Positions 14,268-62,411 of a DNA stretch of 64,000 nucleotides are shown one piece after another (positions within the stretch are counted from its first letter, which is position 1; each line of letters starts with the position of its first letter). Source of the stretch: Pseudomonadota bacterium. Lineage in GTDB: Bacteria; Pseudomonadota; Gammaproteobacteria; Burkholderiales; Burkholderiaceae_C. A program made the translations under genes and the position numbers. The notes beneath the pieces were generated by a model. The model made no database searches. It was not told the origin of the DNA and worked only from the letters and a program-made list of their open reading frames with translations. The stretch spans positions 1-64,000 of the forward strand of contig JAUNUR010000010.1 of NCBI GenBank assembly GCA_030538085.1. The letters are read 5' to 3'.

Positions 14268-15386
14268 ATGGCGACCCAGCCCGACATTGATCTGCTTGCG
14301 CGCACCGTGCTGCTGGGGGCTTTTGCGCTGTCCGCCGTGTTTGGCGCCATCGTGCACCGCACCAATTTCTGCACCATGGGCGCCATTTCGGACATGGTGA
14401 CCATGGGCAACGCCACGCGCCTGCGCCAATGGGCGCTGGCAGTGGGCGTGGCCATGGTTGGCTTTGGCGTACTGGCGGCGGGCGGCTGGGTGCGGGCGGC
14501 CGATTCGCTGTACGCCACGCCGCGCTGGATGTGGCTGTCGGCGCTGACGGGTGGCGCACTGTTCGGCGTGGGCATGGTGCTGGCATCGGGCTGCGGCAGC
14601 AAGACACTGGTGCGCCTGGGCGCGGGCAACCTGAAGGCGCTGGTGGTGTTCGTGGTCATGGCGCTGGCGGCCTACGCGACGATGCGCGGCATCACCGCCG
14701 TGCTGCGCGACCGCACGGTGGACCAGGTATTCGTCGCCTTCAACGAGCCGGCCACGCTGGGGCATCTGACCGCTGCGGCGGCGGGGTGGCCCCTGGGCAC
14801 GACGTTGCTGGGCGCGGCACTGCTGGTCGGCCTGCCGCTGATGGCGTGGGCGCTGGCCGGGCGCAATTTCATCAACGGCAACAACCTGCTGGCGGGGCTG
14901 GGGGTGGGCGGCGTGATCGTTGCCATGTGGTGGCTGAGTGGTCACGCCGGCTACCTGAGCGAGCACCCCGAAACGCTGGAGGCGGCTTACCTGGCCACGC
15001 GCAGTGGCCGCATGGAGGCCATGACCTTCACCGGCCCGCTGGCCCACACCATCGACTGGCTGATGTTTTTCAGCGACAGCAACCAGCGCCTGAGCCTGGG
15101 CGTGGCCTCGGTAGCGGGCGTGGTGGTGGGCGCGGGGCTGCATGCGCTGCTCAGCGGCCAGTTCCGCTGGGAAGGCTTTCGTGCCACGGAAGACCTGGTC
15201 AACCACCTGATCGGCGCCACCCTGATGGGCGTGGGCGGCGTGACGGCGCTGGGCTGCACCATCGGGCAGGGTTTGAGCGGCGCCTCCAACCTCAGCCTGA
15301 CCAGCTTCACGGCGGTGGCCGGTATCGTGGGTGGCGCCGTGGCGGCGCTGAAGTACCAGATGTGGCGGCTGGAGCGGTCGGCATGA
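14268..15386 (+). CDS. YeeE/YedE family (DUF395) sulfur-type membrane transporter
   Basis: A 372-residue polytopic membrane protein. The family imports thiosulfate or related sulfur compounds, and some members are linked to selenium. Both half-repeats carry the conserved Cys motifs: HRTNFCTMGAISDM near residue 27, ASGCGSKTLVRLGAGNLKAL near 104, and ALGCTIGQGLSG near 328. About ten hydrophobic segments are visible. The ATG at 14268 starts 15 bp after a family A repeat. It overlaps tcdA by 4 bp (ATGA). The substrate is not determined. The nearby selenium locus makes selenium uptake possible, but tcdA and tRNA-Lys lie between. Confidence 0.88.
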   Translation: MATQPDIDLLARTVLLGAFALSAVFGAIVHRTNFCTMGAISDMVTMGNATRLRQWALAVGVAMVGFGVLAAGGWVRAADSLYATPRWMWLSALTGGALFGVGMVLASGCGSKTLVRLGAGNLKALVVFVVMALAAYATMRGITAVLRDRTVDQVFVAFNEPATLGHLTAAAAGWPLGTTLLGAALLVGLPLMAWALAGRNFINGNNLLAGLGVGGVIVAMWWLSGHAGYLSEHPETLEAAYLATRSGRMEAMTFTGPLAHTIDWLMFFSDSNQRLSLGVASVAGVVVGAGLHALLSGQFRWEGFRATEDLVNHLIGATLMGVGGVTALGCTIGQGLSGASNLSLTSFTAVAGIVGGAVAALKYQMWRLERSA

Positions 15387-16781: not shown

Positions 16782-19700
16782 ATGGACATGAATCGACGGC
16801 AGTTCTTCCGCGTCAGTGGCGCGGGATTGGCTGCATCAAGCCTGGTGGCGCTGGGTTTTTCACCCACAGCCGCGCTGGCCGAAACCCGCCATTACAAGCT
16901 GGCGCGTGCCACCGAGACCCGCAACAACTGCACCTATTGCTCGGTGGGCTGCGGCCTGCTGATGTACAGCCTGGGCGACGGTGCCAAGAACGCACTGGGC
17001 GACGTGATCCATATCGAAGGCGATCCCGATCACCCGGTCAGCCGTGGCAGCCTGTGTCCCAAGGGCGCTGGCTTGCTCGACTACGTACACAGCCCCGCGC
17101 GCCTGAAATATCCCGAAGTGCGCGAGCCGGGTAGCACCGAATGGAAGCGGATCAGTTGGGACGATGCAATGAATCGCATCGCCAAGCTGATGAAGGAAGA
17201 CCGTGACGCCAATTTCGAGGCCACCAATGCGGCCGGGCAAACGGTGAACCGCTGGCTCTCTACTGGTGTGCTGGCCGCGTCAGCCTCGTCCAACGAAGCA
17301 GGCTACATCACGCACAAGGTGATGCGCAGTCTGGGGATGCTTGTATTCGATAACCAGGCACGTGTTTGACACGGCCCGACGGTAGCCGGTCTGGCTCCGA
17401 CGTTTGGCCGAGGCGCGATGACCAACCACTGGGAGGACATCAAGAACGCCGATTTGGTCCTGGTCATGGGTGGCAATGCCGCCGAGGCGCACCCTGTTGG
17501 CTTCAAGTGGGCCATTGAGGCGCGCAATAACAACAAAGCCCAGCTCATCGTGGTCGACCCGCGCTTCACGCGTTCGGCTGCCATGAGCGACTTCTACGCG
17601 CCGATCCGCGCGGGTACCGACATCGCCTTCCTGGGCGGCGTCATCAACTATTTGTTGTCCAACAACAAGATCCAGACCGAATACGTGCGCCACTACACCA
17701 ACGCGCCGTTCATCGTCGGCGAGGGCTACGACTTCAAGGACGGGCTGTTCAGCGGCTACGACCCCGAGAAGCGAAGCTATGACGCCAAGGCCTGGGCCTA
17801 CGAGATGGATGGGGAGTTCGCCAAGGTCGACATGACCATGGAGAACCCGCGCTGCGTGCTGCAGATCATGAAGCGGCACTATGCGTCGTACACGCCCGAA
17901 ATGGTGAACAAGGTGTGCGGCACGCCGGTGGATGCCTTCAATCGCGTGTGCGAGGCCATCGCCAGCACGGCCGAGACCAGCCGCGTGATGACGATCCTGT
18001 ACGCGCTGGGTTGGACACAGCACAGCGTCGGCTCGCAGAACGTGCGCGCTGGCGCCATCGTGCAACTGCTGCTGGGCAACATCGGCATTTCGGGTGGCGG
18101 CATGAACGCGCTTCGCGGCCACAGCAACATCCAGGGCCTGACCGATCTGGGGCTGCTGTCCACCAGCCTGCCGGGCTACCTGAGCCTTGCCCGCGACAGC
18201 GAGCAGGATCTGGAGACCTACTACCGGCCCCGCGCGGTCAAGCCCGTGCGACCGGGCCAGATGAGCTACTGGCAGAACTATCCCAAGTTCTTCGTCAGCT
18301 ACATGAAGGCCACCTACGGCGCCGCCGCCACGGCAGGCAACCAGTGGGGTTATCACTGGCTGCCCAAGTGGGACACGATGTACGACATCCTGCGCGCCTT
18401 CGAGATGATGAACCAGGGCAAGCTCAACGGCTACATCTGCCAGGGCTTCAACCCGGTGGGCTCCTTCCCCAACAAGAAGAAGATCATCGCCGGTCTGTCC
18501 AAACTCAAGTTCCTGATCACCATCGACCCGCTGAACACCGAGACCTCGGAGTTCTGGAAGAACCACGGCGAGTTCAACGACGTCAAGAGCGAGGACATCC
18601 AGACCACGGTGTTCCGTCTGCCGTCTACCTGCTTTGCCGAGGACGAAGGTTCAATCACCAACTCAAGCCGCTGGCTGCAATGGCACTGGCGGGCCGCCCC
18701 ACCACCGGGCGAAGCCAAGACCGACATCGACATCATGGGCGATCTGTTCGTCCGTATGCGCGCGCTCTACCAGAAGGAAGGCGGTGCGGTGCCCGAGCCG
18801 ATCATCAACCTGAGCTGGCCCTACAAAGTGCCGCACATGCCGGGGCCGGACGAACTGGCCAAGGAATACAACGGCCGCGCGCTGACCGACCTGACCGATC
18901 CCAACGACCCCGGCAAGGTGCTGGTCAAGGCTGGCGAGCAGGTGTCGGGCTTCGGGCAATTGCGTGACGATGGCAGCACCGCCAGCGGGTGCTGGATTTA
19001 CGCCGGCGCCTGGACCCAGGCAGGCAATCAGATGGCCCGGCGCGATAACACCGACCCTTGGCACGATGGGCAGACGCCCGGCTGGGCATGGGCATGGCCG
19101 GCCAACCGCCGCATCCTTTACAACGGCGCTTCAGCCGACCCCACCACAGGCAAGGCGTGGAATCCGCGCCGCCCGCAAGTGCAATGGGGTGGGAAGGCGT
19201 GGGCAGGCTCGGACGTGCCGGACATCGCCGCCACTTCAGACCCGACGAGCGAGGGCGCCATCCGTCCATTCATCATGACGGCCGAAGGCGTGGCGCGCTT
19301 GTTCGCGCCCAGCGGCATGGCCGAGGGCCCACTGCCGACGCACTACGAACCTTTCGAGTCGCCACTGGAGGGCAACCCGGTCTACCCGGCCAACCCGGCA
19401 GCGCGTGCCAACCCGGCAGCGCGCGTGTTCAAGGGCGATATGGAGGCGTTCGGCACAGCCAAAGAGTTTCCCTATACCGCCACCAGCTACCGCCTGACCG
19501 AGCATTTCCATTACTGGACCAAGAACGCCCAGTCCAACGCCATCGTGCAGCCCGAGCAGTTCGTGGAGATCAGCGAGGCACTGGCCAAGGAAAAGGGGAT
19601 TGCCAATGGCGACAAGGTGAAGGTCTCGTCCAACCGCGGCTTCATCAAGGCCGTGGCGGTGGTCACCAAGCGCATCCCGGTGCTCGATTGCGGTGGTACC

Positions 19701-19853
19701 AAGGTGCATACCGTCGGCCTGCCCAACCACTGGGGGTTCGTCGGTCAGACCAAGCCGGGCTATCTGGTGAACACGCTGACGCCCTTCGTGGGTGATGCCA
19801 ACACGCAGACCCCCGAGTACAAGTCGTTCACCGTGAACATCGAGAAAGCTTGA
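16782..19853 (+). CDS. fdnG: Formate dehydrogenase major subunit, selenocysteine-containing (UGA at 17367-17369)
   Basis: Oxidises formate at a molybdenum or tungsten bis-pterin site on the periplasmic side; FdnH and FdnI pass the electrons to quinone. The full product is 1023 residues, read through an in-frame UGA at codon 196. This is the same position as selenocysteine in the E. coli FdnG/FdoG enzymes. A bacterial SECIS hairpin follows at once. The N-terminus is a twin-arginine signal (NRRQFFR...AALAE). Cluster ligands are C50, C53, C57 and C92. Conceptual translation without Sec gives two open frames, 16782-17369 and from 17370 onward. The C-terminal molydopterin dinucleotide-binding domain is intact. 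RBS AAGGAG. The fdo and fdn paralogues cannot be told apart here. Confidence 0.96.
17367..17402 (+). promoter_or_regulatory. Bacterial SECIS element and Sec UGA codon
   Basis: Counting the U of UGA as 1, the hairpin has a left arm at 17377-17387 and a right arm at 17393-17402 around the loop GGTCT. There is a bulged U at position 17 (17383), and G23-U24 sit in the apical loop. These are the positions recognised by SelB in the E. coli fdhF element. The sequence directly after UGA, CACGGCCC, is also shared with it. Confidence 0.93.
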
Positions 19854-19863
19854 GGAGCACGGC

Positions 19864-20802
19864 ATGTCATCTCTTCAATCCCTCGACATCGCCAAGCGTT
19901 CGGCCACCACCACCGCCACGCCGGACGCGCGCGGTCGCATCCCCGAAGTCGCCAAACTGATCGACGTTTCCAGTTGCATCGGTTGCAAGGCCTGCCAGGT
20001 CGCGTGCATGCAGTGGAACGACTTGCGCGACGACGTTGGTACCTGCAACGGCACCTACGACAACCCGGTCGACCTCACGCCCCAGTCGTGGACGGTAATG
20101 AAGTTCTCCGAGGTCGAGGTCACGCCCGGCCGGCTGGAGTGGCTGATCCGCAAGGACGGCTGCATGCACTGCGAGGACCCAGGCTGCCTGAAGGCCTGTC
20201 CCTCGCCCGGCGCCATCGTCAAGTACGCCAACGGCATCGTTGACTTCATCAGCGAGCACTGCATTGGCTGCGGCTACTGCGTCAAGGGTTGCCCGTTCGA
20301 CGTGCCGCGCATCAGCACGAAGGACAACAAGGCCTACAAGTGCTCGCTGTGCGCCGACCGCGTAGCCGTCAGCCAGGCCCCAGCCTGTGCCAAGGCCTGC
20401 CCCACCGGCGCCATCCGCTTCGGCAGCAAGGAAGACATGCTGGCCTACGGCGACGGCCGCGTCACCGAGTTGAAGACGCGCGGCTACGAGCAGGCCGCCG
20501 TCTACAACCCGCAGGGCGTGGGCGGCACCCATGTCATGTACGTGCTGCAGCACGGCGACAAGCCCGAGTTGTATGCCAATCTGCCCAAGGACCCGAGCAT
20601 CAGCCCAATGGTGGCGCTGTGGAAAGGGTTGGCCAAACCCGTGGCACTGGCCACCATGGTCGGTGCCGCGCTGGTGGGCTTCTTCCACCACATGAAGCAA
20701 GGCCCCATGGAAGTGCCCGAAGAAGACGAGGATTACGTCCAGGACGATCAGCCCAACGTGGTCGGGGACGATGGCCGCCTCACCCGCCAGCAGGAGTCGT
20801 GA
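19864..20802 (+). CDS. fdnH: Formate dehydrogenase iron-sulfur (beta) subunit
   Basis: Carries electrons from the FdnG active site to cytochrome b. The 312-residue product has four ferredoxin-like Cys groups: [37 protein letters not shown] and CSLCADRV...CAKACP. One C-terminal membrane anchor lies near residues 262-282 ([16 protein letters not shown]). It has no signal of its own, as expected for export with the Tat-dependent FdnG. It starts 10 bp after fdnG behind GAGGAG and ends 4 bp before fdnI. Confidence 0.96.
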
Positions 20803-20806
20803 CGCC

Positions 20807-21466
20807 ATGAAAAAGCTCTATATCCAGCGCTACACCGACAACCAGCGCATCAACCATTGGCTGGTGGTGGTTCTGTTCGGCTTCGCGGGCTTCTCCGGTC
20901 TGGCGCTGTTCCACCCCAACCTGTTCTTTCTCACGCAGTTCTACGGTGGCCCGCAGTGGACGCGCATCGTGCACCCCTACTTCGGCATCGTGTTGTTCCT
21001 GCTGTTCCTGGTGATGTTCATCGGCTTCTGGCGTCGCAACATCTGGCGCCGCGAAGACACGCAGTGGGTCAAGGCCGCGCCCGACCTGGTGTTGCATGCC
21101 AACATGACCCAAATGCCGCCAGCGCACAAGTACAACGCCGGGCAGAAGCTGGTGTTCTGGCTCATGACGTTCAGCCTCATCGTGCTGCTGGTCACGGGCC
21201 TGCTGTTCTGGCAGGACTGGTTCGCCGCCAGCGTGCCGATCCCGGTGCAACGCATGGCCGTGCTGCTGCACGCCGTGGCTGCCTTCGTCATGTCGCTCAC
21301 CGCCGTGGTGCACATCTACGCCGCCATCTGGGTCAAGGGCACGCTGCGTGCCATGACGCAGGGCACGGTGACTGCGGGCTGGGCCAAGCACCACCACCCG
21401 CTGTGGTATCAGGACAAGATCGGTCAGGCTCAGGCTCGCGCCGAAACCCGGCCGGAACACAGTTGA
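20807..21466 (+). CDS. fdnI: Formate dehydrogenase cytochrome b (gamma) subunit
   Basis: Membrane subunit that anchors the complex and passes electrons to the quinone pool via two haems b. The 219 residues contain four hydrophobic helices, near 18-38, 58-78, 113-133 and 150-172. Histidines sit in INHWLVVV, IVHPYFGI and VLLHAVAAFVMS plus VVHIYAAIW as likely haem ligands. The ATG at 20807 lies 4 bp after the fdnH stop; the longer frame from 20771 overlaps fdnH and is unlikely. Confidence 0.95.
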   Translation: MKKLYIQRYTDNQRINHWLVVVLFGFAGFSGLALFHPNLFFLTQFYGGPQWTRIVHPYFGIVLFLLFLVMFIGFWRRNIWRREDTQWVKAAPDLVLHANMTQMPPAHKYNAGQKLVFWLMTFSLIVLLVTGLLFWQDWFAASVPIPVQRMAVLLHAVAAFVMSLTAVVHIYAAIWVKGTLRAMTQGTVTAGWAKHHHPLWYQDKIGQAQARAETRPEHS

Positions 21467-21535
21467 GCACCACGTTGCTATGCTTACGATAGCTATCAGC
21501 GATTATTCCACAAGGGCTAAGGGCTTTTTTTGCTC

Positions 21536-22552
21536 ATGAACCCAAGCACCGGCACCCGTCTGCGCACGCCTGAGGAAATCGCCCTGCGTGCTGGCGTGGA
21601 CTTTCCGCGCCTGCTACCGCCTGGCTCCCAAGTGTTCGCCGACCGCGCCGTGCGCCTGCGCCAACTGGCCGCCGGCCATGCCATGCGCGACTACCTGTTG
21701 CTGATGGCACTGGTCTGCGAGGCGCAGCACGCCCGCCTGCAGAGGTATCCCGCCGTGCCGCTGCCTGACGCAGCGCAGGCCGATGCCGCAGCAGCGACCG
21801 GCCAGCCGCTGCTGGGCGCGACCACATGGGTGCCGGCGGCTGTGTGGCGCGACGAGTTGCGTGCGTTGCTGGATCATGTGCTGGCGCGCCTGCCGGCCGA
21901 CAGCCCCGCGCGCGCTGGCGTTCAGGCCGCCCGCGCGCTGGATGACGCCACCCTGCAGCGCCTGGCCGAGCGGCTTCTGGCCGGCGTGCCACTGGGGCTG
22001 GACTTGGCTACTGCCCCCTTGGTGGCGACGGGTCTGCAATTGCACTGGACGCACCTGGCCAGCGCCACCGCCGCCGCCCTGCCCGGCGCCTTCGGCATTC
22101 CAGACGACGCCACGCGCTGCCCTTGCTGCGGCAGCCTGCCCACGGCCAGCATCACCCGTATCGGTGGCGACCAGGAAGGGCACCGTTACCTGCATTGCGC
22201 GCTGTGCAGCACGCAGTGGCACATGGTGCGCGTGAAGTGCACGCATTGCCTAGGCACCGGCGGCATCCACTACCAGTCGCTGCAGGCGCTGGCAGAAAGC
22301 GATGGTGTCGCCAAGCGCGATGCCGTGCAGGCCGAAACTTGCGACACCTGTGGCCATTACCTGAAGATCGCCCACATGGACAAAGACCTGCACGTCGAAC
22401 CCATGGCCGACGACCTGGCCACGCTCACGCTCGATCTGCTGGTGTCCGAAGCAGGTTTTCAGCGCCACGGCACCAACCTGCTGCTGCTGTTCGGCGACGG
22501 TGAAAGTGAAGGCGGCGCGCCGCCACCCGACGAAGAACGAGGGCGACGCTGA
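21536..22552 (+). CDS. fdhE: Formate dehydrogenase accessory protein FdhE
   Basis: Needed for maturation of respiratory formate dehydrogenases. The 338-residue product has an N-terminal helical part and a rubredoxin-like C-terminal part with four CxxC groups: CPCC, CALC, CTHC and CDTC. The ATG at 21536 is preferred over TTG 21530. Its stop overlaps the selA start (TGATG), coupling enzyme maturation to selenocysteine synthesis. The 70-bp gap before it holds a GATAGCTATC-type patch shared with other AT-rich patches in the window. Confidence 0.93.
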   Translation: MNPSTGTRLRTPEEIALRAGVDFPRLLPPGSQVFADRAVRLRQLAAGHAMRDYLLLMALVCEAQHARLQRYPAVPLPDAAQADAAAATGQPLLGATTWVPAAVWRDELRALLDHVLARLPADSPARAGVQAARALDDATLQRLAERLLAGVPLGLDLATAPLVATGLQLHWTHLASATAAALPGAFGIPDDATRCPCCGSLPTASITRIGGDQEGHRYLHCALCSTQWHMVRVKCTHCLGTGGIHYQSLQALAESDGVAKRDAVQAETCDTCGHYLKIAHMDKDLHVEPMADDLATLTLDLLVSEAGFQRHGTNLLLLFGDGESEGGAPPPDEERGRR

Positions 22553-24009
22553 TGGCGCGGCCCCCCGAATCCGTGGTCCACGGTTCGCAGGCCCCCTCAG
22601 ACGAGACGCCCCGCGCCCAAGCCAAAGACCTGCCCGCCATCGACCGCCTGCTGCGCCTGTCCAGCGTGGGCGCACTGGTCGATGAACACGGTCACACCCT
22701 GGTGGCCGATACGGCACGCGCCCTGCTTTCTGAACTCAGAACAGCCGCGGTCGCCGGTCGGCTTTCGCAATCAGCGATCGAATCTGAAGCGTTGACACGG
22801 ACTTTGCACACGCGCGTGCAGACCCGCCTGGTGCCGCGCATGCGCAGCGTGCTCAACCTGACGGGTACCGTCATCCACACCAACCTGGGCCGCGCGCTGC
22901 TGGCGGATGAAGCGCTCAAACACCTGCTGGCCGTGATGCAGGCGCCCAACAACCTCGAATACGACCTGGCCACCGGCAGCCGCGGCGACCGCGACAGCAT
23001 CGTCGAAAACCTGCTGTGCGAGCTGACCGGCGCCGAGGCGGCCACCGTGGTCAACAACAACGCCGCCGCCGTGCTGCTCACCATTGCCGCGCTGGCACGC
23101 GGCAAGGAAGTCATCGTCTCGCGCGGCGAACTGGTCGAGATCGGCGGCGCCTTCCGCATGCCCGATGTGATGGAAAGCGCGGGCGCCAGGCTGGTCGAAG
23201 TCGGCACCACCAACCGCACGCACCCGCACGATTACGAGCGCGCTATCAACGAGCGCACCGCGCTCTTGATGAAGGTGCACACCAGCAACTACGCCGTGCA
23301 GGGCTTCACCAGCGCCGTCGATGAAGCCACGCTGTGCGGCATCGCCCACGCGCGCGGTCTGCCCGTGGCCACCGATCTGGGCAGCGGCGCGCTGATCGAC
23401 ATGGCCGCCTATGGCCTGCCGCGCGAGCCGACGCCGCAGGAGATGCTCAAGGCCGGCTGCGATGTCGTCACTTTCAGTGGCGACAAGTTGCTCGGCGGCC
23501 CGCAGGCCGGGCTGATCGTGGGCACGAAAGAAGCTGTGGGCCGCATTCGCAAGTTCCCGATGAAGCGCGCGCTGCGCATGAGCAAGCTGCCGCTGGCCGC
23601 GCTGGAAGCGACGCTGATGCTCTACCTGCGCCCCGAGCGGCTGGCGCAAGACCTGCCCACCCTGCGCCTGCTGACGCGCCCGCTGGCCGACATCGAGGCC
23701 ACCGCCCGAGCCGTGCGGCCCGAGCTGCAGGCGGCGCTCAGCGCCCGCTACACCGTGGAATGCGTGCCGTTGCAAGGCCAGATCGGCTCCGGCTCGCTGC
23801 CGGTCGAACGCCTGCCGTCGGCCGGCCTCGCCATCGCGCCGGTCGAGAAAAAAGGCAGCGGCCGCGCGCTCGATGCGCTGGCCGCCGCACTGCGCCACCT
23901 GCCCACCCCGGTCATCGGCCGCATCGCCGACGACCGCCTGATTCTGGATTGCCGTTGTCTGGAGGATGCCGACAAATTGACGAATCAAATCCCACTCTTG
24001 TCCTTGTAA
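22552..24009 (+). CDS. selA: L-seryl-tRNA(Sec) selenium transferase
   Basis: PLP enzyme that converts seryl-tRNA-Sec to selenocysteyl-tRNA-Sec using selenophosphate. The 485-residue product has the SelA N-terminal domain and the PLP lysine K312 in FSGDKLLGGPQAG. It also has TGTVIHTNLGRALL and EYDLATGSRGDR, typical of the family. It overlaps fdhE by one base. selD is not in this window. Confidence 0.97.
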   Translation: MARPPESVVHGSQAPSDETPRAQAKDLPAIDRLLRLSSVGALVDEHGHTLVADTARALLSELRTAAVAGRLSQSAIESEALTRTLHTRVQTRLVPRMRSVLNLTGTVIHTNLGRALLADEALKHLLAVMQAPNNLEYDLATGSRGDRDSIVENLLCELTGAEAATVVNNNAAAVLLTIAALARGKEVIVSRGELVEIGGAFRMPDVMESAGARLVEVGTTNRTHPHDYERAINERTALLMKVHTSNYAVQGFTSAVDEATLCGIAHARGLPVATDLGSGALIDMAAYGLPREPTPQEMLKAGCDVVTFSGDKLLGGPQAGLIVGTKEAVGRIRKFPMKRALRMSKLPLAALEATLMLYLRPERLAQDLPTLRLLTRPLADIEATARAVRPELQAALSARYTVECVPLQGQIGSGSLPVERLPSAGLAIAPVEKKGSGRALDALAAALRHLPTPVIGRIADDRLILDCRCLEDADKLTNQIPLLSL

Positions 24010-24046
24010 AGATTAGCTGGTCAGCTACTAAAAAAGGAGTTTTCGC

Positions 24047-25429
24047 ATGACCCTCGATCGTCGCCATTTCATCGCCGGCCTGGCCGGCACAGCCGCGCTG
24101 GCCGGTTGCGCCAGCGCGCCCTCGGGCCTCAAGTCGGCCCCTCTCCCCGCCTTCATCGGCCAATCCACGCAAACACTGCTGCCGCGCGGCAAGGCACCGC
24201 GCGTCGTCATCTGCGGCGGCGGTTGGGGCGGCCTGACCACGGCCGCCAACCTGCGCAAGGAGGCCCCGCAGGCCGAAGTGGTGCTGATCGACCGCAACCC
24301 GCAGTTCTTCTCCAGCCCCCTGTCCAACATGTGGCTGGTGGGCATGCTGGATGGCGAACTCCTCACCCAGGACTACCTGCGCGTGTCCGAGCAGTTGGGC
24401 TACCGCTTCGTGCAGGCCGAGGTGCAGGCCATCGATCGCACGCAGCGCCGCGTCACCACCAGCCAGGGCACGCTGGACTACGACTGGCTCGTCATCGCCC
24501 CCGGCATCCGCTACAACTACGAGAGCTGGTTCGGCAACGACCGCGCCGCTGCCGACGCCACGCGCGCCCGCTTTCCCAGCGCCTACGCCAGCAACAGCGA
24601 GTTCCTGGCCATCAAGCGCGCGCTGCAGGGCTTCAAGGGAGGCGATCTGGTCATGAACCTGCCGCCACCGCCGCAGCGCTGCCCGCCCAGCCCCTACGAA
24701 CGAGCTTGCCTGATCGCCTGGTATTTCAAGACGAACAAGATCAAGGGCCACATCACCATCCTCGACCACAAGCCCGCCATCGCCCCCATAGGCCGCGGCT
24801 ACCGCGCCGCGTTCGACGAGTTGTACAAGGACTTCATCACCTACGTGCCCAACGCGCATGTGCAAGAGGTGGATCCGTTCAACAAGCGCATCCGCACCGC
24901 CGCCGGCGACCAGCGCTTCGACCACGCCATCCTGATGGCGCCGCACAAGGCGGGCGACCTGGCCTGGCTGGCAGGCACCGTCAGCCACAGCAGCGACGGC
25001 TGGGCCGACGTGGACGAGATCACGATGCAGGTCAAGGGCGACGAGCGCGCCTTCGTCATTGGCGACGCGATCGCAGCCGTCTCGCCGCTGCCGTTCCGCT
25101 ACTACCCCAAGAGCGCGCACGTGGCCAACCGCCTGGGCCGCATCGTGGCCTACCAGATCGCCGAGAAGCTGGCCGGCCGCGCACCTGAGAAGCGCCTGCC
25201 CGACAACCTGTGCTACATGGTCGTCAACGGCTCGCCGGGCCAGGCGCTGAACGTGCAGTTCGACTACAGCCTCGACGAGCAGGGCCGCGTCAAGCAGGTA
25301 CAGCGCGACTTCAACGAGCGCACGCCCGAGCTGTTTAAGGACGACTTCCGCTGGGCCGACTTCATGTTCGCCGAGATGTTCGGCGGCATCGCGCCGCCGG
25401 TGCTGCCGCTGCCGGCCTATCGGGCCTGA
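24047..25429 (+). CDS. Flavocytochrome c sulfide dehydrogenase-like flavoprotein (FccB/SoxF family), Tat lipoprotein-like
   Basis: 460 residues. The N-terminus has [10 protein letters not shown] plus a lipobox (ALAGC), so export through Tat with lipid anchoring is likely. FAD binding: [17 protein letters not shown] near residue 52 and [10 protein letters not shown] near 340. Both redox cysteines of the sulfide dehydrogenase family are present: C212 in RCPPSPYER and C389 in DNLCYM. The last ~75 residues match the FCSD C-terminal domain. No cytochrome partner lies nearby. It sits between selA and selB with RBS AAAGGAG, 37 bp after selA, so it is part of the sel operon. Sulfide, polysulfide or a selenium analogue as substrate is an inference. 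Confidence 0.85.
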
Positions 25430-25456
25430 GCAGAAGCCCCTCGCAATCGACCGCCC

Positions 25457-27385
25457 ATGATCATCGGCACCGCAGGCCACATCGACCACGGCAAGACCAC
25501 GCTGGTGCGCGCGCTCACCGGCGTGGACACCGACCGTCTGCCTGAGGAGAGAAAACGCGGCATCAGCATCGAACTGGGCTACGCCTTCCTCGGCACGCCG
25601 GATGGTGGCCGCATCGGCTTCATCGACGTGCCGGGGCACGAGCGCCTGGTGCATACGATGGTTGCCGGCGCCAGCGGCATCGACTTCGCGCTGCTGCTGG
25701 TGGCCGCCGACGACGGCCCCATGCCGCAGACGATGGAGCATTTGGCCGTGCTGTCGCTGCTGGGCATCACACGCGGCATCGTCGTCATCACCAAGGCTGA
25801 CCGGGCCGATGCCCCGTGCATCGACGCGGTGCGCACCGAAATGTCGGCGCTGCTGGCACCCACGCCGCTGGCAAACGCGCCGGTCATAGCAGTTTCGGCG
25901 CAGACCGGCGATGGCATCGACGAGCTGCGCGCTCTTCTTTTTGAAGCTACTCTCTCAATATCGGCAGCGGCTACTGGCCTGTTGGGCTCACATGCTTTTC
26001 GACTGGCCGTTGACCGCGCCTTCACTCTGCAAGGCACCGGCACCGTCGTCACCGGCACCATCCATGCAGGCCGCGTGCATGTGGGCGACGAACTGGCCAT
26101 CGTGCCCGGCACGCGCCATGCCCGCGTGCGCAGCCTGCACGCGCAGAACCAGCCGGTCGAAGCCGCCCTCGCGGGCCAGCGCTGCGCCGTGGCGCTGGCG
26201 GGCGTTTCCAAGGACGAGGTAGCGCGCGGCCAGTGGCTGTGCGATCCAGCCGTCACCATCGCCACTGATCGGCTGGACGCGCACCTCACGCTGTGGCATG
26301 CCGAGGCGAAGGCACTGCGCAGCGGCACGCGCGTGCAGGCGCACATCGGCGCGGCCCACGTCAACGCCACCGTCGCCGTGCTGGCGGCCGATGGCTCACC
26401 CGATGCCAAATCCGACGCCCTGGCGCCAGGCGCCAGCGCGCTGGTGCAACTGGTGCTGCAAGCCCCCGTGGCCGCCTGGTATGGCGAGCGCGTGGTGCTG
26501 CGCGATGCGTCGGGCAGCCGCACGCTGGCCGGCGGCATGGTGCTCGATCCGTTCGCGCCCACGCGCTACCGGCGCACGCCGCTGCGGCTGGCTGAACTGG
26601 CGGCGCTGCGGCAGCCGACCATCACCGAGCGCATTCCAGCACTGATCAACGTGGCGCCATACGGTGTCGATCTGGCACGCCTGGCCGCTGCGCAAGGCTT
26701 GTCGGCCCCGCCCAATGACTTCGTGCCTCAAACTGCACTGATACAGGCAGGGCAAGCGCTGGGCGCTGCACAATTAGAAGCATTCGGCGTTGCCACATTG
26801 GCCGCGCTGCAACGCTTTCACGAGCAACAACCCGACGAACTGGGGCCCGACGGCGCACGCCTGCGCCGCTTGGCCGCGCCGCGCCTGCCGCAATCGCTGT
26901 GGCTGGCTTTGCTGGACCGGCTGGCGACCGATGGCATCTTGGTATTGCATGGTGCCTTCGTGCACCTGCCCACGCACGGCACTCAACTCACCGCCACCGA
27001 AACACGCATTGCGCAAAAAGTGGCGCCCGCGTTGATCGAAGCTGGTTTCGAGGGCGCCTGGGCGCGCGACCTGGCGAAGGACGCTGGCGAAAGCGAGCCG
27101 CTGGTGCGCACCACGCTGGCCCGCCTGGCGCGACGTGGCGAGTTGCACCAGATTGTCAAGGACTTGTACTACCCACCCGCCACCCTGCAACGCGCGGCCG
27201 CGCTAGCGCGCCAGGTGGCGGCCGAGCACAGCGGCGACGTGCTCGCCGCCCAGTTCCGCGATGCCACCGGCCTGGGCCGCAAGCGGGCGATTCAGATTTT
27301 GGAATACTTCGACCGCGTCGGCCTCACGCGCCGCGTGGGCGACGTGCACAAGCTGCGCGCCGATTGCACGCTGTTCATGCCATGA
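25457..27385 (+). CDS. selB: Selenocysteine-specific elongation factor SelB
   Basis: GTPase that brings Sec-tRNA to UGA codons followed by a SECIS hairpin. The 642-residue product has G1 [14 protein letters not shown]3 [12 protein letters not shown] and G4 [10 protein letters not shown]-Tu-like domains II-III follow to about residue 350, then C-terminal winged-helix repeats that bind the SECIS. The last helix motif is [21 protein letters not shown]. It is 27 bp after the flavoprotein gene. A small AT-richer patch at 25925-25985 encodes an unusual Leu/Ser-rich stretch in the G domain. Confidence 0.97.
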
Positions 27386-27423
27386 TTCACGTAGAACAGA
27401 TTCCCTTGGCGATTTCCTCGAAT

Positions 27424-27539
27424 GGCCGCGGAGCAGGCCACCCCAGCCAACGCCGTGGCCGGGCTTGCACCGGCCACTGGCGTTGTCCCCCCTCCCGCGG
27501 AGGGAGGGGGGAAGCGGCGTCAGCCGCTCAGGGGGGAGT
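27424..27539. repeat. Family E intergenic repeat, copy 3
   Basis: Very close to the copy at 6262-6375 (shared ACGCCGTGGCCGGxCxTGCxCCGGCCACTGGCG blocks). It fills the space between selB and selC, 9 bp before the tRNA. Confidence 0.82.
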
Positions 27540-27548
27540 TCTTATTCC

Positions 27549-27644
27549 GGAAGGGCAACCATCCTGGTGGGTGGGCCGGGCTTCAAACCCGGTGGGTGGC
27601 GCCATGCGTCGCCGGGTGGGTTCGACTCCCATGCCCTTCCGCCA
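27549..27644 (+). tRNA. selC: tRNA-Sec (selC, anticodon TCA)
   Basis: A 96-nt gene with an 8-bp acceptor stem (GGAAGGGC with the closing GCCCTTCC) and GCCA encoded at the end. The anticodon stem GCCGGG/CCCGGT holds the loop CTTCAAA, with TCA at 27583-27585. The long variable arm and the T loop GGTTCGACTCC are clear. It decodes the UGA in fdnG. Confidence 0.97.
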
Positions 27645-27652
27645 GAGTTGCC

Positions 27653-28108
27653 ATGCCATCTGATCACGCACCGCCACATCTGCATTACCTGATGGCGCAT
27701 CAGGTCTGGGCGCGGGTGGAAGGCGATGGCACGGCCACGGTGGGTATCACGCAACTGGGTATCCGGCTGGGCGGCGAGGTCTACATGTGCCGTGCCAAGC
27801 GCGTGGGCACCGACGTGGCACAAGGAGGAACCATCGCCGTCGTTGAACTTTCGAAGTCCGTGGTGGCAGTCAAGTCTCCCGTCAGCGGCACGGTAATGGC
27901 CGTCAATGAACTGCTCGAAGAACAACCGGAGCATATTCACCTGGATCCCTGGGGCCGGGGCTGGATCGCCCGCCTGCGGTTAAGCGACTTCAAGTCCGAC
28001 CGCTCGGCGCTGATCACTGGTGATGCCGTCGCACCCGCCATGGCCCACCAGGCCTGGTTGCACCGGCTGGAACTGGTGCCCGCCACGACCCCGGCAACCA
28101 AGAAATGA
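27653..28108 (+). CDS. GcvH-like lipoyl-domain protein in the selenium locus
   Basis: 151 residues from ATG 27653; an in-frame ATG at 27692 (MAHQVW) is also possible. It has the GcvH fold signature with the lipoyl-lysine position kept: K68 in VVELSKSVVAVKSPVSGTV aligns with the ESVKA lysine of GcvH. The N-terminal WARVEGDGTATVGITQLG matches the GcvH beta-sheet. A C-terminal tail of about 25 residues is extra. No gcvP or gcvT is near. It begins 8 bp after tRNA-Sec and ends 7 bp before the DsrE-like gene. GcvH-like proteins with DsrE partners occur in sulfur-oxidising (sHdr) systems, so a sulfur or selenium carrier role is inferred. Confidence 0.82.
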   Translation: MPSDHAPPHLHYLMAHQVWARVEGDGTATVGITQLGIRLGGEVYMCRAKRVGTDVAQGGTIAVVELSKSVVAVKSPVSGTVMAVNELLEEQPEHIHLDPWGRGWIARLRLSDFKSDRSALITGDAVAPAMAHQAWLHRLELVPATTPATKK

Positions 28109-28115
28109 GCTGACG

Positions 28116-28511
28116 ATGGGCTTTGTTGAACACAGCTTGGACGGTATTGCCATCTTGCTCTGGGCAGCCGATCCGGCTCGGCCTGAAAAACTGGCCACGC
28201 CGTTTTTTCACGCCACTGCGGCGGCGGCCATGGATGCGCGAGTGGAAATGTATTTCACCGCAACCAGCGTGCACCTGCTGATGCCTGGCGTGGCGGATGG
28301 ACTGCGCGCCAGCCCGCTGGTGAACAAGACGATTGGCGACAACCTGCGAGAAGCCGCGGCCCTGGGTGCGCGCTTTTTTGTCTGCTCCGATGCGCTGCAC
28401 GCACAAGGGTTGGAGGCCTCGCGCTTGATTGCCGAATGCAGCGGACACGGCGGTGCCGTGCAGTTCATGGCTCGGGCACTGGATGCACGCTGGCGTGCCC
28501 TGGTGTTTTGA
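28116..28511 (+). CDS. DsrE/DsrF-like family protein
   Basis: 131 residues from ATG 28116. The single-domain Rossmann-like fold starts GIAILLWAADPA. Cys90 in ARFFVCSDALHAQG stands where sulfur-carrying DsrE/TusD proteins have their persulfide cysteine. The family relays sulfane sulfur between proteins. It lies 7 bp after the GcvH-like gene. Its TGA stop is part of the TTTTGAACCTATTGAG end of a family A repeat. The selenium or sulfur link comes only from context. Confidence 0.8.
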   Translation: MGFVEHSLDGIAILLWAADPARPEKLATPFFHATAAAAMDARVEMYFTATSVHLLMPGVADGLRASPLVNKTIGDNLREAAALGARFFVCSDALHAQGLEASRLIAECSGHGGAVQFMARALDARWRALVF

Positions 28512-62154: not shown

Positions 62155-62352
62155 GGTATCCGCCCAGTGTGTCGGCAGGTCTTCGGACTCCGTGGACACG
62201 GGGCTGAATGAAGCTCAGACCCACCTACCGCGCCCCGCTTCCCAGGCGCCAGGCCCAGTGCTGTTGAAGCGTTTCGTTCCCACTTACCGCTGCGGGGCAG
62301 CTCCGGACTTGCACCGGATTCCCTTCTTTCGATCCGCCACCGAACCGGCGCA
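62155..62352 (-). ncRNA. Cobalamin (B12) riboswitch upstream of nrdA
   Basis: On the minus strand the order of conserved blocks is GGGAATCCGGTGCAAGTCC, GGAGCTGCCCCGCAGCGG, TAAGTGGGAACGAAACGC, a variable P6-P8 region, then GAGTCCGAAGACCTGCC (62174-62190) and ACACACTG. These are the hallmark B12-box segments. Its target is the B12-independent reductase, so expression should fall when B12 is present. Confidence 0.95.
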
Positions 62353-62363
62353 GATACCGACGG

Positions 62364-62411
62364 CCACAATATATAGTGTTTTCATGATATTGAAAACACT
62401 ACATGTAGTAT
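62364..62411 (-). promoter_or_regulatory. nrdAB promoter with tandem NrdR boxes
   Basis: Two 16-bp sites resemble the NrdR consensus ACACWATATWTAGTGT: CCACAATATATAGTGT (62364-62379) and ACACTACATGTAGTAT (62396-62411). They are spaced 32 bp start to start (three helical turns). On the minus strand TTTTCA (62391-62396) and TATATT (62368-62373) are 17 bp apart and give a plausible -35/-10 pair inside the boxes. Confidence 0.8.

Follow-up and report, generated by a model that had tools for sequence, protein, structure and literature searches.

What do a lipoyl-domain protein and a DsrE-like protein do at the end of an operon for selenocysteine (Sec) insertion? The question is raised by a 64,000-nucleotide stretch of a Pseudomonadota bacterium of the Burkholderiaceae_C (GenBank assembly GCA_030538085.1, contig JAUNUR010000010.1, positions 1 to 64,000; the window in what follows), in which selA, selB and the gene for tRNA-Sec are accompanied by genes for a flavoprotein resembling that of flavocytochrome c sulfide dehydrogenase (FCSD), a GcvH-like protein (GcvHL) and a DsrE-like protein (DsrEL). 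An earlier note on this DNA took the three as a set that might deliver selenide or perselenide to SelD/SelA. Our analysis sets the flavoprotein apart and leaves a two-gene module, GcvHL and DsrEL, whose distribution follows that of SelA; with a probability of about one half, this pair is a two-protein cytoplasmic chalcogen relay serving production of the Sec-dependent formate dehydrogenase-N (FDH-N) encoded in the same operon.

A gene pair that co-occurs with SelA

The distribution was analysed in 150 genomes of the family, representing 141 genera and at least 90% complete in 133 cases, with DsrEL called at E < 1e-20 and SelA, SelD and the FDH-N alpha chain called over their model cut-offs. 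SelA is found in 39 genomes and the GcvHL/DsrEL pair in 17, every one of them with SelA and all with GcvHL adjoining DsrEL, the GcvHL copy of G141 being divergent (33% identical). Of the co-occurrence that the earlier note had suggested looking for, the part concerning the pair is seen: it is present in 17/39 genomes with SelA vs 0/111 others (Fisher 5e-12, uncorrected for kinship). Four further DsrE matches, two of them in G101 and the others in G141 and G042 (E 1e-4 to 1e-6), were too weak to enter the DsrEL count, and G107, which lacks SelA, holds only a DsrEL piece of 42-45 residues. A 42-residue DsrEL piece (86% identical) on the minus strand of stretch L220 (2813-2938) belongs to a genome lacking SelA and looks as if it had decayed after Sec loss.

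A second scan, of named genomes, turned up 126 relatives, and the analysis used the best 80 loci among them (the named loci; they partly overlap with the 150-genome sample, e.g., L101/G146 and L127/G013). These DsrEL loci show selB in 72 cases, tRNA-Sec in those same 72 and selA in 66; GcvHL is present in 78, within 900 bases of DsrEL, centre to centre, in 74, and within 1.5 kb 3' of tRNA-Sec in 66, 58 of them within 300 bases. The locus reflects more than chance, as dozens of genomes repeat this order and the pair follows SelA; an oddity of this one strain, which the earlier note would have counted against its idea, is not what is seen.

The stretches without selB (L086, L096, L109, L140, L142, L143, L145 and L161) come from eight genomes, six of which have SelA elsewhere, none being shown for L109 and L161. 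Contig ends cut L096, L109, L140 and L143, and the stretch is complete (20 kb) in L086, L142 and L145, where the pair has been relocated, since the full 20 kb holds no selB; in G026 the pair similarly lies ~17 kb from selA. The pair can thus move as a unit yet stays with SelA. Spread by plasmids receives no support, a DsrEL match being present in none of 72,556 plasmid records. Distant relatives of DsrEL match in 63/274 genomes of the class, and 20 stretches holding such relatives (31-42% identical) contain neither selA nor selB and no GcvH-like gene adjoining DsrE, a lone one (L200) lying ~6 kb off.

The operon and its separable flavoprotein

The sel genes of the window are the tail of a one-strand run, fdnG(Sec)-fdnH-fdnI-fdhE-selA, that had been overlooked in the earlier note, and the features are as follows (scores in bits, vs cut-off where given).

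16782..19853, + strand: fdnG, alpha chain of Sec-type FDH-N (TIGR01553, 1433.2), with an in-frame TGA at 17367-17369 and open reading frames (ORFs) on both sides
17364..17422, + strand: SECIS_3 selenocysteine insertion element (Rfam RF01989, 77.3 vs 63)
19864..20802, + strand: fdnH, iron-sulfur chain (ORF; equivalent place in relatives)
20771..21466, + strand: fdnI, cytochrome b chain (ORF extent, true start probably downstream; equivalent place in relatives)
21530..22552, + strand: fdhE-like maturation gene (ORF, its stop overlapping the selA start; equivalent place in relatives)
22552..24009, + strand: selA (TIGR00474, 589.5 vs 267.9)
24047..25429, + strand: FCSD-like flavoprotein with C212 and C389 (PF21706 FCSD_central, 83.3 vs 27)
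25457..27385, + strand: selB (TIGR00475, 465.5 vs 242.25)
~27484..27514, no strand: GC-rich hairpin between selB and tRNA-Sec, read from the sequence
27549..27644, + strand: tRNA-Sec, selC (ARAGORN; RF01852, 82.4 vs 47)
27653..28108, + strand: GcvHL, GcvH-like lipoyl-domain protein with K68 and an extra C46 (PF01597, 99.8 vs 22.2)
28116..28511, + strand: DsrEL, DsrE-like protein with the candidate persulfide/perselenide cysteine C90 (PF02635, 28.5 vs 22.7)

The names fdnH, fdnI and fdhE are presumptive and follow from position. Profile and RNA-model scores confirm the gene order from selA to DsrEL and the coordinates given for it previously, and the four residues singled out then (C212, C389, K68 and C90) are all in place. 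Successive gaps between selA, the FCSD-like gene, selB, tRNA-Sec, GcvHL and DsrEL are 37, 27, 163, 8 and 7 bases, the 163-base gap containing the hairpin, whose core occurs once in the window in a pattern scan allowing up to 4 mismatches. With SelD encoded elsewhere in the genome (420.5 bits vs cut-off 125), the locus is a Sec operon: it has selA, selB, tRNA-Sec, a SECIS-bearing target and a genomic selD.

The flavoprotein does not form one unit with the other two. In alignments to solved FCSD chains (5n1t_A, E 6e-48; 1fcd_A, E 2e-36), its C212 and C389 fall on cysteines, which we take to be the FCSD redox pair, and both are kept in 17/17 flavoprotein rows (residue counts here and below are over alignment rows from the window and the named loci: 79 for GcvHL, 81 for DsrEL and 17 for the flavoprotein). 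Inspected by eye, its start carries a motif for twin-arginine translocation (Tat; RR) plus a lipobox, missed in the earlier note; RR is kept in 15/17 rows, the other two having shortened starts, and two Tat models score under cut-off (14.5 vs 22.7; 13.5 vs 16.7). Judged by this start, the flavoprotein is probably exported by Tat, and an exported protein could not supply cytoplasmic SelD/SelA with selenide. Among loci showing both selA and selB, the window uncounted, the flavoprotein gene lies between them in only 14/66 named and 7/33 sampled cases; in L157 it is found 3' of DsrEL instead. Being present in a minority of loci and probably exported, it is separable, and the trio of the earlier note gives way to the pair.

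In relatives the flavoprotein keeps company with TlpA/transglutaminase-like or putative selenate-transporter genes, and would be a separable, probably exported accessory for periplasmic chalcogen redox chemistry. The TlpA-like and transglutaminase-like genes, with starts that look Tat-like by eye, lie in the selA-selB interval whether the flavoprotein is there or not (5/66 named, 6/33 sampled loci); in L155 they precede selD, a place that agrees with the genome's SelD match (433 bits). Flavoprotein relatives also occur outside the sel locus, ~50% identical in eight genomes, seven of them with SelA, and 63% identical in a ninth (G133), without SelA. Two such outside stretches (L221 and L224, both read through) show near the relative what is presumably a soxZ-like ORF, joined in L224 by a presumably soxY-like one. 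A further FCSD-like relative (61%; L082, 7686-9017, + strand) belongs to a SelA-less genome, and the ORF beside it is presumably dsbD.

Other observations concern the surroundings. A cassette encoding a FadE16-like protein (Rv1679 family), a binding protein like Rv1680 and a protein of AurF type whose N-terminal part is weakly TusA-like is found in sel operons, 3' of selA, in L074, L079, L107, L108, L115, L131 and L144 (L079 and L131 being apparently the same genome; in L108 the cassette is 5' of FCSD and selA lies beyond the stretch); one FadE16-like and one Rv1680-like protein were scanned and both fall under model cut-offs. In the window, a YeeE/YedE-type sulfur transporter gene (14268-15386, + strand; PF04143, 194.3 bits) lies ~1.4 kb 5' of fdnG; as a member of the locus it was rejected, tblastn being negative in 120 related stretches, many of which extend no more than a few kb upstream of fdnG or are truncated at contig ends. 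A cobalamin riboswitch is found at 62157-62376 on the minus strand (103.9 bits).

Selenium or molybdenum-site sulfur

The residues kept by the pair suggest how a relay might work. In alignments to solved GcvH chains, K68 of GcvHL falls on the lysine of their lipoyl motif, and it is conserved in 79/79 rows; C46 is present in 69/79, with no other cysteine among the (nearly) invariant columns. DsrEL, of 131 amino acids and with profile matches of DsrE type only, keeps C90 in 81/81 rows, set in a C(S/T)DAL-type context in 15 of the 17 DsrEL rows compared for this motif, in CADAL and CSMAL in the remaining two, and in CGXC in none; by this conservation among DsrEL rows, C90 is a candidate persulfide cysteine. 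Eleven comparisons with four near relatives, covering GcvHL, DsrEL and FCSD, give dN/dS values of 0.08-0.33. By analogy with carriers of the same families (DsrE-type sulfurtransferases, and LbpA in excerpts of PMC6067878), GcvHL would be lipoylated and DsrEL would be loaded with chalcogen: C90 would carry it as persulfide or perselenide, after which the lipoyl arm on K68 would either accept it or reduce it, so that the next enzyme would receive selenide or sulfide. As to target and direction, we lean modestly towards selenium passing to SelD/SelA to meet a high FDH-N demand, rather than sulfur for the molybdenum site.

Another assignment would place GcvHL in glycine cleavage, as a second GcvH of the usual kind, with DsrEL beside it but unrelated. 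The PF01597 match and the kept lipoyl motif would suit it, as would an ORF near the pair in G026 and in the Brachymonas loci L142 and L145 that we presume to be glyA. It is nevertheless very improbable, as GcvHL scores under the NCBIfam GcvH cut-offs (99.9 vs 117 for PRK01202; 83.2 vs 115.85 bits for TIGR00527), the window's genome has a separate GcvH elsewhere, 41% identical to GcvHL, and GcvHL keeps so close to DsrEL in the named loci.

Neighbouring genes speak for selenium, and the distribution of SelD speaks against plain feeding of SelD. A TIGR04553-like gene, in the direction of the pair, is found by tblastn in 15/80 named loci; NCBIfam describes this family as 'putative selenate ABC transporter substrate-binding protein'. 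The gene lies 3' of dsrEL in ten loci (L103, L115, L149, L159-L165), the match beginning no more than 165 bases away in eight and ~0.7-0.8 kb away in L103 and L115, and between selA or FCSD and selB in five (L091, L108, L112, L146 and L150). The model scores 356-396 bits vs a cut-off of 250 on L161 and these last five, the other nine being assigned by tblastn; L161 has a dsrEL-transporter arrangement without GcvHL. Selenium is favoured because putative selenate transporter genes share operons with the pair in relatives, and conversely their position inside or 3' of sel operons is useful support for the family's name. SelD is over cut-off in 135/150 genomes, 38 with SelA and 97 without, G116 being the one genome with SelA and no SelD over cut-off. 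None of the 97 with SelD and no SelA has the pair, which is therefore unneeded for selenide supply in general, and a role as general SelD feeder is weakened. Of the delivery of selenide to SelD/SelA as first proposed, the link of GcvHL and DsrEL with selenium or Sec stands, through SelA tracking and the selenate-type transporter genes, while the flavoprotein drops out and simple SelD feeding loses ground.

A different cargo is considered next, namely sulfur for the molybdenum sulfido ligand of FDH-N, in which case the pair would overlap or replace the persulfide function of FdhD with no selenium chemistry. FDH-N alpha is over cut-off in 37/150 genomes; a single in-frame TGA is present in 36 of them and absent from G126. 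All 37 were sorted by FdhD, the CXXC region being inspected in the 33 that have an FdhD match (E 0.001). CXXC FdhD is present in 20/20 FDH-N genomes without the pair vs 7/17 with it (G013, G030, G053, G067, G111, G127 and G144); 6/17 have solely a GCGQG FdhD-like form under the FdhD cut-off (G000, the window's genome, G015, G036, G091, G129 and G146), and in 4/17 nothing matches FdhD at E 0.001 (G026, G095, G140 and G141). None of the 37 lacks both the pair and CXXC FdhD. Fisher tests uncorrected for kinship give 5.6e-5 overall, 0.036 for the four complete absences and 0.019 within the 24-operon clade. On a quick tree of 36 FDH-N operons (G126 left out; gain and loss not told apart), pair presence changes at least five times, and only five independent contrasts with FdhD are available, of which 3 agree, 0 oppose and 2 are ties under most pairings (p 0.25 by sign test), so that the association is consistent in direction, underpowered on the tree, and a lead rather than a passed test. 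The GCGQG form of G000 sits in a second operon beside a gene with a Tat-like start, which we presume to be formate dehydrogenase-like. The four genomes without an FdhD match, listed as 99-100% complete, have a Sec-type FDH-N all the same.

Absence of the pair from the three genomes with SelA and no FDH-N, and from those with SelD only, would also fit a sulfur relay. Against it, seven genomes carry both the pair and CXXC FdhD, the selenate-type transporter genes speak for selenium, and FdhD also binds bis-molybdopterin guanine dinucleotide (bis-MGD), a property unmatched by anything recognised in the pair. Published work points both ways: in excerpts of PMC6239281, E. coli FdhF is active only with FdhD, and the sulfur is supplied by the desulfurase IscS, and part of PMC11237541 calls fdhD essential for formate dehydrogenase biogenesis in C. 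jejuni; the same excerpts of PMC6239281 report that the CXXC is not essential and that FdhD and FdsC are interchangeable. Given this dispensability and interchangeability, the hard cases are limited to the four genomes without any FdhD. In vitro sulfuration is an available method for the formate dehydrogenase of R. capsulatus (PMC12140954). We hold the sulfur relay to be possible and on balance doubtful.

Several observations weigh against the chalcogen relay for Sec-dependent FDH-N that we propose. The pair is missing from 22/39 genomes with SelA, from all 3 of these without FDH-N over cut-off, and from the 97 SelD-bearing genomes mentioned above; DsrEL passes the PF02635 gathering cut-off weakly; and the name of TIGR04553 is itself hypothetical, which leaves the transporter evidence at the level of a suggestion. 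Two metagenome-assembled genomes also depart from the pattern, that of L161 having DsrEL without GcvHL, and without SelA or SelD over cut-off, and that of L109 showing neither SelA nor SelD over cut-off, its contig being 3.7 kb long and beginning 81 bases ahead of DsrEL. Sec and FDH-N are inseparable as the tracked trait, because there is a single FDH-N genome without TGA and just three genomes with SelA and no FDH-N. The absence from 22/39 genomes with SelA and the repeated changes on the operon tree, which make the pair dispensable, together with the broad uses of DsrE and lipoyl domains, would agree with a module for thiol/persulfide redox or stress functions in general, riding with the fdn-sel operon and having no specific Sec or molybdenum job. 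Such a module would be hard to reconcile with the lack of an intact pair in any genome without SelA over cut-off, or with the persistence of SelA where the pair lies away from sel, and we regard it as improbable.

Precedents and comparison with known systems

A more novel possibility, less likely than not, is that a lipoyl-swinging-arm protein and a DsrE-type carrier form a dedicated selenium (or molybdenum-site sulfur) donor for Sec formate dehydrogenase, able to make CXXC FdhD or all FdhD dispensable. To our knowledge, a role of lipoate as donor arm for selenium or molybdenum-site sulfur is nowhere in print. The pair is undescribed among the matches listed (titles and abstract starts, in partial coverage) for Sec with GcvH, lipoate-binding protein, DsrE or selB/fdhE/Burkholderiales, and equally among those for selenium with lipoylated or dihydrolipo- terms. 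Available parts of a selenium gene survey (PMC5322559) name YedE, YedF, a LysR and DUF3343, and words beginning GcvH, lipoyl or flavoprotein are absent from them and from the corresponding parts of two reviews (PMC9312934 and PMC13188914).

Many relatives of Burkholderia with a selenium-containing formate dehydrogenase keep the pair beside the selenium-insertion genes, and its two proteins may feed sulfur or selenium into the enzyme by an undescribed route. How selenide passes to SelD without poisoning the cell, and how the sulfido ligand of formate dehydrogenase is supplied, are both incompletely understood, and a conserved two-gene module present in 17 of the 39 SelA genomes sampled in the family is a small, deletable target for both questions; nature already offers an experiment in the genomes that have Sec-FDH-N without a recognised FdhD. 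If the proposal is true, lipoate, so far placed in 2-oxoacid and glycine metabolism and in sulfur oxidation, would also have a part in selenium supply or the maturation of molybdenum enzymes.

Compared with known systems, each component has a recognisable counterpart and differs from it. GcvHL shares domain family and lipoyl lysine with GcvH, and departs from it in its motif VVEL(S/A)KS, the extra C46 and scores that miss both NCBIfam cut-offs, so that by score it is not a GcvH equivalog. The flavoprotein resembles that of FCSD in its FCSD_central domain, both cysteines and probable export, but is encoded here between selA and selB, where the window has no cytochrome subunit gene beside it. 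FdhD and FdsC, sulfuration chaperones of formate dehydrogenase (PMC6239281, in excerpts), may overlap with the pair in donating sulfur during enzyme maturation, but belong to other families, and no bis-MGD site was recognised in the pair. YedF/FdhU (SirA plus DsrE domains; PMC5322559, in part) likewise has a DsrE-type domain tied to selenium use, FdhU being linked to formate dehydrogenase; DsrEL lacks both the N-terminal SirA domain and the CGXC described for YedF there, and is not a YedF. Nor does GcvHL pass, by its cysteines, for an LbpA of sHdr sulfur oxidation: by the excerpts of PMC6067878, LbpA has two strictly conserved cysteines, near its N and C ends (some archaeal LbpAs excepted), whereas GcvHL has no conserved terminal cysteine and a single mid-chain C46. 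The neighbours of LbpA genes are hdr-like genes and one for a dedicated lipoate ligase, those of GcvHL genes are fdn and sel genes; no hdr-like gene was recognised beside GcvHL, no search having been aimed at hdr or ligase genes. What the two systems do share, as far as those excerpts of PMC6067878 go, is a GcvH-like lipoyl protein that keeps its lysine and is encoded in a cluster with DsrE-like sulfurtransferases.

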